Source: Clostridiales bacterium
GTDB taxonomy: Bacteria; Bacillota; Clostridia; UBA1381
DNA length: 33,530 nt
NCBI GenBank assembly: GCA_029226975.1
Contig: JAQXZB010000029.1
Span: 1-33,530, forward strand
Direction: 5' to 3'
The notes beneath the pieces were generated by a model. The model saw only the letters and a program-made list of their open reading frames with translations. It had not been told where the DNA came from and ran no database searches. Within the stretch, counting starts at the first letter, position 1. Each line of letters starts with the position of its first letter. Shown here one piece after another: positions 24,180 through 32,673 of this stretch. A program made the position numbers and the translations under genes.

Positions 24180-24869
24180 TTACATTTTGCCGTAGGGCAT
24201 ATCCGCCGCAAGGGATAAAACAATGGTCAGATTGCCATTTCTGCACCGAAGCTCATCTATGAATTTTTTCTCATCGGCATTTTTGTTTAAGGAAATATCA
24301 TATGTAAGCTCATAAAGAGAGCCAAGCTCCGTTGTTTTGATTTTGGACAGAGTGTGGGTGTGGGTGAATTTCTCGAAAATCGGGTCAAATGCACCCTCAT
24401 AATCCAAATCCTCCGGTATTGTGATTTTTAAAACCCTTGCGGCACTGTACTTTTTGCCGAAATGGGTAAAATGCAAAATAAGCATGAAAGCGCATACAAC
24501 AACCACAAACAGCGCGCCGTAGGAAATCATTCCCACTCCGCCCGCAAGCCCCGCCGCGGTTGCAAAAAAGATATAGGCAATGTCCTTGGGGTCGCCGGGT
24601 GCGCTTCTGAAACGGACAATGGAAAGCGTTCCGGCAAGGGAAAATGCTCTTGCCACATTCGAGCCCACAAACATTATAATCACCGTTAAAATAACCGGCA
24701 GCATGGTAAGCGTTACCGTAAAGCCCTGCTGATATGCTTTGGTTGTTTTCATATATGTAAAGGCGATAATAAGACCGAGAATTATTGCGCCTATCATCGA
24801 TAAAACCGTTCCCGAAACGGTTATTGCCTCCGATGCGAATGTGAATTGATTAAAGATATTGTCTAACAT
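24180..24869 (-). CDS. DUF4956 membrane protein
   Basis: A 229-aa protein with an N-terminal half of about four membrane helices (about 19-40, 52-70, 97-134) and a soluble C-terminal ~90 residues. The conserved SIVRFRSAPGDPKDIAYIFFATAAGLA block (83-109) identifies DUF4956. Its biochemical role is unknown; genes of this family commonly sit beside VTC-domain polyphosphate polymerases, as here with a 13-nt gap. It may serve as a membrane channel or anchor for the polymerase, by analogy with membrane subunits of the eukaryotic VTC complex. The start at 24869 is chosen for its GAGGAAG ribosome binding site; an upstream in-frame ATG would extend into the neighbouring gene. Confidence 0.85.
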   Translation of the reverse strand: MLDNIFNQFTFASEAITVSGTVLSMIGAIILGLIIAFTYMKTTKAYQQGFTVTLTMLPVILTVIIMFVGSNVARAFSLAGTLSIVRFRSAPGDPKDIAYIFFATAAGLAGGVGMISYGALFVVVVCAFMLILHFTHFGKKYSAARVLKITIPEDLDYEGAFDPIFEKFTHTHTLSKIKTTELGSLYELTYDISLNKNADEKKFIDELRCRNGNLTIVLSLAADMPYGKM

Positions 24870-24882
24870 AATTAAAACTTCC

Positions 24883-25662
24883 TCATATGCGGCAGCCGGC
24901 AGGCTGCGGTATAAATATATATTTTTTCTCGTAATCGGGACGGGCAAGCTTTTTTATGTACTGCTTGTACTCCGTTCCGTATTTTGAAAAGCTGCTTCGG
25001 TAAATCCTTTGCTCATCTATCAGCTCCACAAGCCATAAGGGCATTGCGCGGGAGGTTTTTATCTCCATAACCCACAGCCCCGGCGCGATAAGCCCCTCGC
25101 CCTCGTCACCGTATTCAAAGGACAAATCGTGACGGCGGGCTCTTAGGTTGGTGTCAAAGGAAATGCGCAAATCATCATTGCCCCGCTCAAAATATGCCAG
25201 ACGGTCATAGGCTATGTACACCTTCGGAGCAAGGCACTCACTGCGCTCCCAAAGATATTCTATTTCCTTTAATACCTGCTTGTTTATATAAGACCGGCTC
25301 TCGTCCGGATATATGCCATTTTCGATAAAGGCATACGCTTCGCGGGGACAAAGCTGTGTGCGGCGCTTGTTGACAAGTCCCTTGTATTTTTTCTTTATCT
25401 CCAAAAAGAACATGGAATTTTCATTAACTGTTCCGTATGAGCGCAGGCGAAGCTTCTCCTTGTACACCGGCTTGTTCAGCGAACGGCGTATGAGCGCGTC
25501 GTCGGGGGTGTCGCAGTAAAGGTTTGCAATGGTGTACAGACTGTGATTTTTGCAGTATTTGTCCACTACCATGTGTAAATCAAGTGCATCTGTGATTTTC
25601 TCAAAGGTTTTTTGGTCTATTATGTACTTATATTCATAACGATTAAATACTTCAATCGGCAT
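24883..25662 (-). CDS. VTC-domain polyphosphate polymerase
   Basis: A 259-aa protein of the VTC catalytic-domain family, a triphosphate-tunnel fold that builds polyphosphate from ATP. It shows RYEYKYIID near the start, VYKEKLRLRSYG and FFLEIKKKYKGLVNKRR (basic and acidic tunnel residues), KVYIAYDRLAYF, ISFDTNLRAR, and a late VMEIKTSRAMP. GGGAG precedes the ATG at 25662; a start at 25704 would fall within the regulatory region. Transcribed with the DUF4956 gene. Divergent to a PhoPR-like two-component system, which suggests synthesis is tied to phosphate or envelope conditions. Confidence 0.85.
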   Translation of the reverse strand: MPIEVFNRYEYKYIIDQKTFEKITDALDLHMVVDKYCKNHSLYTIANLYCDTPDDALIRRSLNKPVYKEKLRLRSYGTVNENSMFFLEIKKKYKGLVNKRRTQLCPREAYAFIENGIYPDESRSYINKQVLKEIEYLWERSECLAPKVYIAYDRLAYFERGNDDLRISFDTNLRARRHDLSFEYGDEGEGLIAPGLWVMEIKTSRAMPLWLVELIDEQRIYRSSFSKYGTEYKQYIKKLARPDYEKKYIFIPQPAGCRI

Positions 25663-25690
25663 ATAATCATCTCCCTTCCGTTTTACAATC

Positions 25691-25724
25691 ATTTTACAAT
25701 ACATAGCTTAAAAGAGCCTTAAAA
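25691..25724 (-). promoter_or_regulatory. Direct-repeat operator and -10 of the polyphosphate operon
   Basis: Reading the minus strand, TTTTAAG, 4 nt, TTTTAAG (25718-25724 and 25707-25713) form a tandem heptamer with 11-nt periodicity, followed after 10 nt by TAAAAT (25691-25696). The repeat takes the place of a -35. This is the layout used by OmpR/PhoB-family activators, which bind head-to-tail on repeats one helical turn apart. Confidence 0.55.
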
Positions 25725-25748
25725 AAAATAAGGAATTTTTTGAACAAA

Positions 25749-25781
25749 TTTTAAGCCATTTTTAAACTTTTGTGATATAAT
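25749..25781 (+). promoter_or_regulatory. Direct-repeat operator and -10 of the two-component system
   Basis: TTTTAAG, 4 nt, TTTTAAA (25749-25755 and 25760-25766) followed after 9 nt by a perfect TATAAT (25776-25781). There is no -35 at the proper distance. It mirrors the box at 25707-25724, so the response regulator may activate its own genes and the polyphosphate genes from one intergenic region. Confidence 0.55.
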
Positions 25782-25813: not shown

Positions 25814-26497
25814 ATGCGTATATTGGTTGTTGAGGACGAAAAGCATCTTGCGGAGGCCTTGGGTCATCTTCTTAAAAAGAATAATTATACCGTAGATATT
25901 TCCAATGACGGGGAAAGCGGGCTTGACAATGCCTTAAGCGGTATATACGATGTTATAGTTTTAGACGTCATGCTGCCCAAGTTAGACGGGATTTCCATAT
26001 TAAAGGAAATACGCGGGGAAGGGCTGGACGTGCCGGTTATAATGCTGACTGCCAAGGGCGAAATTTCGGATAAGGTTCTGGGTCTTGACAGCGGTGCGGA
26101 CGATTATTTGGCAAAGCCCTTTAATACAGAGGAGCTTTTGGCAAGAATACGCGCGTTGGGCAGACGCCGCGGCGAAATAATTACGGAAAGCGCACTTTCC
26201 TTTGGCAATACCTCGCTTGATACGGGCAGCCTTGTGCTGAAAAACGGAACGGAGGAGGTTGCGCTGACCCTTAAGGAATGTGAGCTTATGGAATTTCTCA
26301 TGCTAAGAAAAAACCTTGTTGCGTCAAAGGAGCAGATTATAGAGAAGCTGTGGGGCTTTGAAAGCGAAGCGGAGGCAAATCATGTTGAGGTCTATGTTTC
26401 CTTTCTGAGAAAAAAGCTTAAATTCGTACATTCCAATATATCCATTAACGCAATTCGCGGAGTGGGTTATAAGCTGGAGGTGTGCGCGGATGTTTAA
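25814..26497 (+). CDS. OmpR/PhoP-family response regulator
   Basis: A 227-aa protein with an N-terminal receiver domain (VVEDEKHLAEAL; phospho-acceptor D51 in VLDVMLPKLDG; T79; K101 in LAKPF) and a C-terminal winged-helix DNA-binding domain (LTLKECELMEFL, VEVYVSFLRKKL, IRGVGYKLE). The ATG has GGAGAG upstream. It overlaps the kinase gene by 8 nt. It very likely receives phosphate from that kinase and binds the direct-repeat boxes in the adjacent intergenic region. Confidence 0.95.
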   Translation: MRILVVEDEKHLAEALGHLLKKNNYTVDISNDGESGLDNALSGIYDVIVLDVMLPKLDGISILKEIRGEGLDVPVIMLTAKGEISDKVLGLDSGADDYLAKPFNTEELLARIRALGRRRGEIITESALSFGNTSLDTGSLVLKNGTEEVALTLKECELMEFLMLRKNLVASKEQIIEKLWGFESEAEANHVEVYVSFLRKKLKFVHSNISINAIRGVGYKLEVCADV

Positions 26498-27746
26498 AAA
26501 GCTCAGAAACCGTATGCTTTTGGTAAATATGCTTATAATCGGCGCGCTTATACTGGGCAGCTTCAGCGCGATATACACGGTTATTTCCCAAAATACCTTC
26601 CATAATATCGAACAGCGCCTTGACCGGGCGGCAGGCTTTGCCCGTATGCAGCAAAGCCCCCGGCAGGGCGAACCGCAGCGCCGGGGAACGCAAAAGCCCT
26701 CACCCGAGGAGGGGCAAAAATTCAGCTTTGAGCCGACAATTGCACTTACAATTGATGAAACGGGCGAAATAATCGCAAAAAGCTCCGACTGGAATATGGA
26801 GGAAGCTGACGAGGAGCAGCTTGCCGCGGCGGCAAAGCAGATAATGAAAAGCGAGAAAAAGCATGGGAGCATAACTATGATGTCGGCGCGCTGGGATTAT
26901 AAGCTGTTTAAAGAGGGCGGTGTGTACATTGCCGCAATGGGACAGTTTGCCACAGAGCATAGAATGTTATATACGCTTCTTATAGCCTTTTGTTTGGGCG
27001 GTGCGGCGGTAATGGCGGCGGCGTTTTTTATATCGCTCAATATCTCAAACCGCAGTATACGTCCGATTGAGGAAAGCTATAACCGTCAGAAGCAGTTCAT
27101 TGCCGATGCGTCCCATGAGCTAAAAACTCCGCTCACTACAATAAATACCAATGTGGACGTGCTGCTGTCCCATAAGGACAGCACAATAGGCGAGGAGCAA
27201 AAGTGGCTCTATTATATAAAGGGCGAGGCTCAGCGTATGTCCCGGCTTACGGATGACCTTTTGTATCTGGCAAAGCTTAATCACGATGAGAATGAAATAT
27301 TTTCGCGGGTATCCTTTTCCGATAATGCCGAAAGCGTCATTCTCGCAATGGAAGCGGTCGCCTTTGAAAAGAATATATTGATTGAGGACAATATTGCGCC
27401 TGAGGTATATGTAAACGCGTCCGACACGATGCTTAAGCAGCTTATGATGATACTTCTCGACAATGCCATAAAATACACTCCGCCCGCCGGGAAAATCAGC
27501 GTTGTACTGACCTCGGAGGGAGTGCTTAGGGTCAGAAATACCGGTGAGGGAATAAGCGAGGAGGATCAAAAGCGGATATTCGAGCGTTTTTACCGTTCCG
27601 ACAAGTCCCGCGCCAGGGAAAGCGGCGGCTACGGACTGGGGCTTGCCATAGCAAATGCGATATGCACCCGCTTCGGCGGCAGTATCTGGGTTTCCTCGGT
27701 TTTGGGCGAGTTTACGGAATTTACGGTAAAGCTTGATGTATTGTAA
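26490..27746 (+). CDS. Sensor histidine kinase
   Basis: A 418-aa membrane kinase with two helices (about 8-30 and 159-183) enclosing a ~128-residue extracytoplasmic sensor. HisKA follows with DASHELKTPLTTI (phospho-acceptor H209). The HATPase module has MILLDNAIKYTPP (N box), VRNTGEGISEED (G1), FERFYR (F box) and GGYGLGLAI (G2). The sensor begins with a Q/P/R-rich segment (about 53-77) likely to be disordered, then a PAS-like or Cache-like region starting IALTIDETGEIIA. It is translationally coupled to the response regulator. Confidence 0.93.
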   Translation: MFKKLRNRMLLVNMLIIGALILGSFSAIYTVISQNTFHNIEQRLDRAAGFARMQQSPRQGEPQRRGTQKPSPEEGQKFSFEPTIALTIDETGEIIAKSSDWNMEEADEEQLAAAAKQIMKSEKKHGSITMMSARWDYKLFKEGGVYIAAMGQFATEHRMLYTLLIAFCLGGAAVMAAAFFISLNISNRSIRPIEESYNRQKQFIADASHELKTPLTTINTNVDVLLSHKDSTIGEEQKWLYYIKGEAQRMSRLTDDLLYLAKLNHDENEIFSRVSFSDNAESVILAMEAVAFEKNILIEDNIAPEVYVNASDTMLKQLMMILLDNAIKYTPPAGKISVVLTSEGVLRVRNTGEGISEEDQKRIFERFYRSDKSRARESGGYGLGLAIANAICTRFGGSIWVSSVLGEFTEFTVKLDVL

Positions 27747-29907: not shown

Positions 29908-30387
29908 ATGCCGAGAAATGAAGAAGAAAAGCAGGGTCTTACGCTTTTGGGGAACAAAAAGACGGTATATTCCGATAATTACGCGCCGGAGGTTTTGGAG
30001 GTGTTTGTGAACAAGCACCCCGAAAACGATTACATGGTGACCTTTAACTGTCCGGAATTTACCTCCCTTTGCCCAATAACCGGGCAGCCGGACTTTGCAA
30101 AAATTATTATAAATTATGTTCCCGATGTGAAAATGGTCGAGTCAAAATCTCTGAAGCTGTATCTGTTCAGCTTCCGTAACCGCGGCGATTTCCACGAGGA
30201 CTGCATAAACATTATAATGAAGGACTTAAAAAATATTATGGACCCGAAATATATCGAGGTCAAGGGAATATTCACGCCCAGGGGCGGAATTTCCATTTAC
30301 CCCTTTGCCAATTACGGCAGACCGGGTACAAAATACGAAAAAATTGCCGAAAAAAGATTATTTGACAGCTTGGGGGCGATGGAATGA
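29908..30387 (+). CDS. queF: NADPH-dependent 7-cyano-7-deazaguanine (preQ0) reductase
   Basis: A 159-aa QueF of the short (Bacillus-type) class. It carries [16 protein letters not shown] with catalytic Cys55 and Asp62 (same numbers as the Bacillus subtilis enzyme), the substrate-binding [14 protein letters not shown], and GDFHED with the active-site histidine and glutamate. It reduces preQ0 to preQ1. An AACGGAGG ribosome binding site precedes the ATG. Its stop overlaps the queC start as ATGA. Confidence 0.96.
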
Positions 30388-31043
30388 GAAAAGCATTGGT
30401 TGTATTGTCCGGGGGACAGGATTCGACTACCTGTCTGTTTTGGGCAATAGATAAATTCGGAAAGGAAAACGTGTCGGCAGTGGGCTTTGACTACGGTCAA
30501 AGACATAAAAAGGAGTTAGAGTGCGCAAGGGAAATATGCAATGAGGCGGGAGTTTGTTATGAGGTTATCCCGACCCCGATTATAAATCAGTTAAGCGCAA
30601 ATTCCCTGACCCGCGCGGATATTCCCGTTGAGGAAACAAAGCCCGAGGGCGCAGTACCCAACACCTTTGTTGAGGGAAGAAACCTGCTGTTTCTTTCCTA
30701 TGCGGCAATTTTTGCCAAAACTCACGGCATAACCGATTTGGTTACGGGCGTGTGCGAAACGGATTTTTCCGGTTATCCCGACTGCCGCGATATTTTTATA
30801 AAATCATTGAATGTAACCTTAAATTTGGCTATGGATTACAATTTTGTTATTCACACGCCGCTTATGTGGATTGATAAGGCACAGACCTGGGAACTGGCGG
30901 ATAAGCTGGGTGTTATGGATATAATCTATAACAAAACCCTAACCTGCTATAACGGCGTTTTGGGCGAGGGCTGCGGCCACTGCCCGGCGTGTACGCTGAG
31001 AAGACGAGGCTATGAGGAGTATATAAAAAAATGTACGAAGTAA
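30384..31043 (+). CDS. queC: 7-cyano-7-deazaguanine synthase
   Basis: A 219-aa ATP-dependent ligase that turns 7-carboxy-7-deazaguanine and ammonia into preQ0. It has the PP-loop [10 protein letters not shown] at the N-terminus, [13 protein letters not shown], and a C-terminal zinc site [15 protein letters not shown]. The standard length is met. Overlaps queF by 4 nt and queD by 13 nt, so the three are translationally coupled. Confidence 0.97.
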
Positions 31044-31369
31044 AAAAACGGCTTGAAATAAGCGCGGCGCACCGTCTTAGATTGGATTATGACTCAAAAT
31101 GCACCAATTTTCATGGTCATAACTGGATTGTAGACGTATATTTAAGAAGCCGAAAGCTTGATAAAAACGGCATGATTATGGATTTTACCCATATAAAGCA
31201 GAAAATTCTCGATAAATTCGACCATAAGGTGATAAACGATGTGGTGGATTTTAACCCCACAGCGGAGAATTTGGCAAAATTCATATGCGATGAGCTTGCG
31301 CCCTGCTGCTACAGAGTTGATGTTCAGGAGAGCGAGGATAACATCGCGTCGTATATAAAAGAGGATTAA
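31031..31369 (+). CDS. queD: 6-carboxy-5,6,7,8-tetrahydropterin synthase
   Basis: A 112-aa QueD. The zinc ligands are in SAAHRL and FHGHNW, and [20 protein letters not shown] contains the catalytic histidine/aspartate region. TAENLAKFI and ES EDN-type C-terminal glutamate (QESEDN) complete the family pattern. It uses dihydroneopterin triphosphate, the product of the FolE encoded two genes downstream. A short form of the family. Confidence 0.95.
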
Positions 31370-31372
31370 AAA

Positions 31373-32050
31373 ATGCGCATTGTTGAGATTTTTGACAGTA
31401 TAGACGGCGAGGGCATAAGAACGGGAAAGGCAGTTTCCTTTGTGCGTACCGCGGGCTGTAATTTGAGGTGCAGCTACTGCGATACGCTTTATGCGCTGTT
31501 CGGCGAGGAGGAGCCCTGTAGTTATGAGGATATGAGCGTTGACCGGGTTATGTCGCGGATAAATCCGCGCTTTCGCCGAGTAACCTTAACAGGCGGCGAA
31601 CCGCTTCTTGACCCGGATATGCCGGCTTTGACAAACCGGCTTTTGGAGGAAGGCTTTGAGATAAATATTGAAACCAACGGCGCGGTGAGCATAACGGATT
31701 TTTTAAAGCGAGTAAAGCCGGGGAATTTGTTTTTTACCATTGATTATAAGCTGCCCTCATCGGGTATGACGGATAAAATGCTTTGGAGCAATTTTTTGTC
31801 CTTGCGGGAATGTGACGTAATCAAGCTTGTGGTAGGCTCGGACGCGGATTTTGACGAGCTTGTGCGCGTGGTGTCGGAGATGTCAGCCCATTATAAAACT
31901 ATGCCCCATATCTATATCGGAGTTGTATACGGAAGCTATGATCCCGCCCGACTTATTGAGAAAATGATGAACACCCAAGTTTTGACGGACGCGGTATACC
32001 AGATACAACTGCACAAGTATATATGGGACCCCGACGCCAGAGGAGTGTAA
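31373..32050 (+). CDS. queE: 7-carboxy-7-deazaguanine synthase (radical SAM)
   Basis: A 225-aa radical SAM enzyme with the CNLRCSYC cluster motif (CX3CX2C), SIDGEGIRTGKAVSFVRTAG at the substrate side, LTGGEPLLD, and IETNGA. It rearranges 6-carboxytetrahydropterin into the deazaguanine core. GAGGA within the end of queD acts as ribosome binding site. The cluster loop is of the standard length, with no insertion. Confidence 0.96.
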   Translation: MRIVEIFDSIDGEGIRTGKAVSFVRTAGCNLRCSYCDTLYALFGEEEPCSYEDMSVDRVMSRINPRFRRVTLTGGEPLLDPDMPALTNRLLEEGFEINIETNGAVSITDFLKRVKPGNLFFTIDYKLPSSGMTDKMLWSNFLSLRECDVIKLVVGSDADFDELVRVVSEMSAHYKTMPHIYIGVVYGSYDPARLIEKMMNTQVLTDAVYQIQLHKYIWDPDARGV

Positions 32051-32094
32051 CGAACGCCGTAAGCGGCGCATCTTACCCTTGTTAGGAGGTAAAA

Positions 32095-32673
32095 ATGAAG
32101 AAAGAATTTGACCATGAAAAAATAAAAGAAGCGGTAAGAATGCTCATTAGAGCTGTGGGCGATGACCCCGAAAGAGAGGGTCTTGTTGAAACGCCCGACC
32201 GCGTAGCCCGTATGTATGACGAGATTTTCGAGGGCATGCGTTATACAAATGACGAGATAGCCGAAATGTTCGGCAAGTGCTTTGAGGATGTGAATACAAG
32301 CGATTTGGTGCTTGTAAAGGATATAGAGGTGTTTTCTTACTGCGAGCATCATTTAGCGCTTATGTATAACATGAAATGCCATGTGGGATATATCCCCAAC
32401 GGCAAAGTCATAGGGCTTTCGAAGATTGCCAGAATATGCGATATGGTATCGAAGCGATTGCAGCTTCAGGAGCGTATCTGTGCGGATATTGCAGATATAA
32501 TGCAGAAGGTCTGCAATACCGAGGACGTTATTGTCATAATCGAGGGCGAGCACAGCTGCATGACCGCCCGCGGAATAAAGTCCCGGGGAGCAAAGACAAG
32601 AACCAGCGCGATAAGAGGACTTTTCGATACCGACCATGAGCTTAGAAATGAGGTATACGCGCTTTTAAGATAA
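32095..32673 (+). CDS. folE: GTP cyclohydrolase I
   Basis: A 192-aa FolE, with [12 protein letters not shown] (zinc/active-site Cys and His), [25 protein letters not shown], and the C-terminal [20 protein letters not shown]. It converts GTP to dihydroneopterin triphosphate, feeding both folate and the QueD step. Its placement right after queE supports a role in the queuosine branch. AGGAGG precedes the ATG, and a small CGCCG/CGGCG hairpin lies in the 44-nt gap after queE. Confidence 0.97.

Follow-up and report, generated by a model that had tools for sequence, protein, structure and literature searches.

A CiaR-like direct-repeat operator and its probable two-component regulator at a clostridial VTC-DUF4956 operon

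Introduction

In the phosphate regulons of PhoB and PhoP, the -35 element gives way to a direct repeat of 11 bp, on which an OmpR-family regulator acts and whose half-site differs from TTTAAG. The PmrA/BasR-type box of enterobacteria, YTTAAK-N5-YTTAAK, has the spacing of the repeat analysed here and very similar half-sites. The nearest described operator is that of CiaR in streptococci, TTTAAG-N5-TTTAAG, with the -10 element ten nucleotides further (PMC3091779; reviewed in PMC8317062), and the published recognition helix of CiaR is VVEVYVSKVRKKL (PMC3091779). The csRNAs, small RNAs under CiaR control, carry regions complementary to ribosome-binding sites and AUGs (PMC8186281). The type of operator, and the principle by which it works, is already known.

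To our knowledge, it is not established what VTC-DUF4956-CotH genes do in the physiology of bacteria. Gram-positive Pel clusters have cotH-PPP-DUF4956 as accessory genes (PMC7112168), and the same set of CotH, a polyphosphate-polymerase-like protein and DUF4956 recurs in the present work. Here we describe a direct-repeat operator in a window of 33,530 nucleotides (the whole stretch of DNA that was analysed) from a Clostridiales bacterium, where it lies between a VTC-DUF4956 operon and a divergent operon for a response regulator and a histidine kinase (RR-HK).

Results

Two divergent promoters carry direct repeats in place of a -35 element

The first-pass annotation had described mirror-image TTTTAAG-N4-TTTTAA(G/A) boxes that replace the -35, 10 nt (minus strand) or 9 nt (plus strand) before the -10, and the window sequence bears this out. 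The minus-strand box, TTTTAAG GCTC TTTTAAG, spans 25724-25707 and is followed by 10 nt and TAAAAT; the plus-strand box, TTTTAAG CCAT TTTTAAA, spans 25749-25766 and is followed by 9 nt and TATAAT. The repeat period is 11 nt in each, and each occupies the -35 position (Table 1). A consensus scan for standard sigma-70 elements gave no -35/-10 pair for either promoter. Set against the CiaR operator, NTTAAG-N5-TTTAAG, the VTC side is exact and the regulator side has one mismatch, its second half-site ending in A rather than G, together with N9 spacing. Since the same promoter in G001, a genome of the same genus, has an exact box (TTTAAGCCATTTTTAAG-N10-TATAAT), the plus-side copy of the window looks slightly decayed; G001 has the weak third half-site as well. 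A second repeat of 11-nt period, TTGTAAAATGA/TTGTAAAACGG, overlaps the VTC -10 and leader on the minus strand (25672-25694), possibly by coincidence.

Table 1. Features of the VTC-DUF4956 and RR-HK locus, in window coordinates
Feature	Position	Strand	Remark
DUF4956 membrane protein (PF16316), second gene of the operon	24180..24869	-	start 24869 inferred from homologues
VTC-domain protein (PF09359), VTC4-like tunnel fold	24883..25662	-	
-10 TAAAAT of the VTC-DUF4956 promoter, operator 10 nt away	25691..25696	-	window sequence
Operator of the VTC promoter, TTTAAG-GCTCT-TTTAAG, half-sites 11 bp apart	25707..25723	-	exact match; kept upstream of VTC in relatives
Weak third half-site TTTGAA, 11 bp upstream of the plus operator	25739..25744	+	2 mismatches over the pair
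Operator of the regulator's own promoter, TTTAAG-CCATT-TTTAAA, one mismatch	25750..25766	+	window sequence
-10 TATAAT of the RR-HK promoter, operator 9 nt away	25776..25781	+	window sequence
OmpR-type response regulator, recognition helix HVEVYVSFLRKKL	25814..26497	+	
Sensor histidine kinase, gene overlaps the regulator gene	26490..27746	+	

The motif alone proves nothing, because the bare 18-mer with up to 2 mismatches finds as many matches across the window genome (162+154) as its reversed control (163+175), without enrichment. When a -10 is required, the window genome holds 3 exact matches, as opposed to 0 for the exact reversed control. The 151-bp intergenic region was shuffled 60,000 times with its dinucleotide content preserved; no shuffle contained a divergent pair of boxes with -10s (0/60,000), and an exact box at N10 arose at a frequency of 3e-5.

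The box is conserved and tracks the regulator

Conservation was followed in a family sample of 70 genomes, mostly draft assemblies and related to one another. In a first set, made up of the window genome and 40 relatives, with orthologues of the regulator called at an E-value of at most about 1e-70, the exact box was present in all 12 regulator-positive genomes and in 0/29 genomes without the orthologue. Across all 70 genomes, the exact box with a -10 has 81 matches against 5 for the reversed control, and it occurs in 29/29 regulator-positive but only 1/41 regulator-negative genomes (Fisher p=7e-19, genomes treated as independent), the sole exception being G053, an 81%-complete draft. Common ancestry alone is insufficient for this pattern, because the genera g1, g4, g14 and g15 contain genomes of both kinds. 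Where the family-wide search left positions unconstrained, the matches spell TATAAT at the -10, favour G and TT within the spacer and show a C-A step some 7 nt beyond the -10.

Boxes with at most one mismatch lie within 250 nt of VTC in 20/27 VTC loci of regulator-positive genomes. The VTC box is somewhat further upstream in G055, G056 and G058, a box precedes the MBL-fold gene upstream of VTC in G051, and in G024 a box with one mismatch stands before an upstream gene for a secreted protein. The regulator gene often lies away from VTC, so nearness of the two genes does not account for the conserved VTC box. At the regulator's own promoter, a box with at most one mismatch is found in 21/28 assessable orthologues; the remaining seven are G049, with two mismatches, and six g15 genomes, which have the regulator and a box elsewhere (at VTC in five) and none before the regulator. 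The boxes are kept at VTC and regulator promoters in relatives and follow the presence of the regulator, which was the conservation check proposed in the first-pass annotation; the self-activating switch that it had predicted agrees with most of the orthologues and is not universal, as g15 illustrates.

Half-site and regulator vary together

The VTC promoters of regulator-negative genomes, G053 aside, have a different half-site: 15/20 carry NYTAAT-N5-TTTAAT-N10-(-10) or a TTAAC form. Family-wide, TYTAAT-N5-TTTAAT has 36 matches, compared with 4 for the control, and 33 of the 36 come from genomes that lack the regulator. G010 and G078 have the TTTAAT form at the promoters of both VTC and a diverged regulator, and the TTAAC form is found at both promoters in G085. 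A second regulator type, with helix NVVDVYIRYLRKKI, is preceded by the TTTAAT form in G062 and G067 and probably in G069 too, where the ORF that was picked is antisense; regulators with this helix also lie downstream of VTC-DUF4956, for example in G005, G010, G076, G078 and G079. Within a given regulator-negative genome, the half-site change is consistent at VTC, MBL and regulator promoters. The last half-site base changes together at separate promoters of a genome, which is what would be expected of boxes read by a single regulator.

Regulators 43-55% identical to that of the window are encoded a few kb from VTC and/or DUF4956 in Romboutsia weinsteinii, Lachnospiraceae and other Clostridia, in a scan of named genomes that returned mostly distant OmpR-type regulators, and no streptococcal locus, among the matches listed. 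Similar repeats stand at both the linked regulator and VTC promoters in three such loci (L251, L256, L257) and are less perfect in a fourth (L252). HlyD-like proteins are found behind a TTTAAT box (L350, G067:C141, with a MacB-like ABC protein downstream) and behind a TTTAAG box (L112, G013:C234), which suggests that they may be a target shared across the regulator switch.

The regulator resembles CiaR in its recognition helix

As the first-pass annotation had it, the adjacent response regulator is of PhoB/OmpR type: it has receiver and Trans_reg_C domains and is paired with a kinase. Its recognition helix is identical to that of CiaR at 10/13 residues (HVEVYVSFLRKKL in the window, VVEVYVSKVRKKL in CiaR). 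Of the PhoB/OmpR-type repeat claimed earlier, the OmpR-type direct repeat stands, and the place of nearest described operator passes from PhoB to CiaR; the regulator misses the cut-off of the PhoB model. It also falls below that of the PmrA model and its targets are unrelated to those of PmrA, although the PmrA/BasR box resembles the present one further in the G/T freedom at the last position between lineages. With the CiaRH regulon the locus has in common the sequence of the operator, its 11-bp period and its distance from the -10, as well as predicted autoregulation and ORF-less targets ending in terminators. Streptococci, however, belong to another bacterial class, and CiaR targets htrA, lic, dlt and the like, whereas the targets here are VTC-DUF4956, Cthe_2159/CotH and MBL genes; the likeness is one of operator and helix, the RNAs being candidates only. 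Downstream of the two-component system, the window reads as a queuosine-precursor run (QueF, QueC, QueD, QueE and a GTP cyclohydrolase-like gene, 29908-32673).

The boxes precede surface-protein genes

Targets of the 81 exact matches were grouped by sequence clustering, with part of the products annotated by family search. The matches precede 29 secreted/surface proteins (one large linked cluster), 21 VTC genes, 11 regulators, 4 MBL-fold proteins, 2 DUF4405 proteins and a few singletons, including one DUF4956 and one HlyD-like protein. In the window genome, the set consists of RR-HK, VTC-DUF4956, a DUF4405 gene (L040), a Cthe_2159 gene (L043) and an ORF-less promoter (L041). The surface protein L043 joins Cthe_2159 (PF14262) to a copper-amine-oxidase N-domain, and its box, with one mismatch, is outside the 81. 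Other members of the surface cluster look CotH/LTD-like by reading. The first-pass annotation had looked to pst and other phosphate genes as hits of the box; among the targets of the 81 exact matches, as far as these are annotated by family search, none was recognisable as pst, pho or ppk, and a PhoB-like phosphate regulon was rejected. The regulon has the look of a programme for the cell surface, not one for phosphate.

The VTC protein has a VTC4-like fold

The VTC gene likely starts at ATG 25662, behind GGGAGATG, as judged from homologues and the ribosome-binding site, for which a start at 25704 was set aside. The protein model (pLDDT 90) has VTC4 as its best match (Foldseek E 3.6e-14, profile E 8e-18); a PDB search with the single sequence gave no match, and the profile search did. 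Basic and acidic tunnel residues are invariant in 27 homologues, as in the VTC fold. Fold and conserved residues are those of the yeast polyphosphate polymerase VTC4, from which the bacterial protein differs in having no SPX domain and in having a separate DUF4956 membrane partner, and its polymerase activity is a prediction. Because the window genome also encodes a full-length PPK1 (G000:C22:16304-18316), VTC is not its sole possible polyphosphate synthase. Of the predicted switch for VTC polyphosphate synthesis, the regulation of VTC is strongly supported by computation, and a polyphosphate product is conjectural, given PPK1 and the surface co-targets. In contrast to the Pel clusters, no pel genes were seen next to the window operon, and adjacent two-component regulation is not mentioned in the excerpted text on those accessory genes (PMC7112168).

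Candidate small RNAs behind ORF-less boxes

Nine assessable exact matches have no credible ORF behind them, and 8/9 of these have a strong terminator within about 60-120 nt, as opposed to 2/71 ORF-associated matches. CCCCC stands in a loop or unpaired stretch in 7 of the ORF-less candidates, and UUCAUA precedes the terminator in most. The candidate of the window genome, L041 (G000:C112:4946-5110), with a predicted length of about 120 nt, is outside the window, between prfA and a convergent oxidoreductase gene; behind its exact box are two hairpins, GCCCCCAA, CCCTATTTCATA and a terminator. A similar RNA, L083, is found at a different location in G001, and between these two g1 sequences the single-stranded motifs are kept and the stems differ. 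Other terminator-ended ORF-less candidates occur in g14 (L096, L158, L162, L334), g10 (L094, L119) and g15 (L181), several of them with the CCCCC and UUCAUA motifs. The orthologous RNAs of g14 have 9 predicted pairs with pairing-preserving two-sided changes, counted over three sequences with one terminator slightly misaligned. The candidates had no Rfam family match at gathering score, L073 and L096 being searched at a permissive threshold, and an RNA model, R1, recovered one further homologue in G050, on a contig that ends before the box. The motifs suggest that the candidate RNAs could cover ribosome-binding sites and start codons.

Discussion

Judged from sequence, the boxes very probably function as operators, and the protein that most likely reads them, and activates from them, is the adjacent regulator. 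Two back-to-back promoters without a normal -35 would be read through TTTAAG-N5-TTTAAG repeats of 11-bp period by the adjacent OmpR-type regulator. The kinase would phosphorylate the regulator in response to some signal, a phosphorylated dimer would bind the repeat head-to-tail, some 10 bp ahead of the -10, and the bound regulator would recruit RNA polymerase. It would switch on both divergent operons, RR-HK (its own) and VTC-DUF4956, drive a small scattered surface regulon of Cthe_2159/CotH-type, MBL-fold and DUF4405 proteins, and probably drive the short terminator-ended RNAs as well. We hold this reading, in which the adjacent regulator reads both boxes and activates all of these targets, with considerable confidence. 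Computation strongly supports the regulatory half of the original prediction, because the box co-occurs with the regulator, the VTC box is kept where the regulator is distant, and the half-sites co-vary with the regulator. The mismatch and N9 spacing of the plus-side box, and the six g15 genomes with no box at the regulator promoter, speak against it.

The sign of regulation is the first point at which the boxes could be read differently: they would still be operators of this regulator, with VTC and/or the regulator itself repressed or with a promoter-dependent sign. We infer activation, rather than repression, solely from the position of the box relative to the -10, and CiaR itself represses manLMN (PMC8317062). 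This alternative is nevertheless improbable, as the box replaces the -35 at a near-constant N10 at nearly all promoters, like activated CiaR promoters, and most CiaR promoters listed in the review are activated (PMC8317062). A second regulator, always co-inherited with the first, may read the boxes and would be compatible with the co-occurrence. Less likely still than repression is ownership of the boxes by another OmpR-type regulator, with the neighbouring two-component system merely a target. NTTAAK-N5-NTTAAK-like repeats are indeed used by several OmpR-type regulators, of which the genome has many (28 first-look candidates were scored), but it is this orthologue that predicts the exact box (29/29 against 1/41), even within g1, g4, g14 and g15, and the half-site switches where the orthologue is absent. 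Chance repeats in AT-rich sequence, with promoters relying on other elements, would fit the behaviour of the bare 18-mer in the window genome and have a negligible probability, being contradicted by the shuffle test and the co-occurrence with the regulator and refuted by conservation, since with a -10 and across relatives the box is enriched.

A search of the open-access literature turned up no paper that connects a two-component system with VTC genes of bacteria. Nor did it yield a description of the VTC-DUF4956 link, of the regulon in Clostridia, of the change of half-site from lineage to lineage or of the RNA candidates in Clostridia. We lean slightly towards a broader picture, in which a CiaR-like global switch with csRNA-like RNAs would govern a clostridial VTC-DUF4956/Cthe_2159/CotH surface programme that was handed to other regulators (TTTAAT/TTTAAC) in sister lineages. 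Tying the VTC-DUF4956-CotH genes to a two-component system gives them a genetic handle, in the form of a kinase, a regulator and an operator, together with a set of genes that would be co-regulated with them. The pairs of operator and regulator, with G, T or C at the last position and differing helices, are a natural experiment in specificity change. Additionally, csRNA-like candidates in other bacteria would broaden a mechanism that the papers cited here describe from streptococci only.
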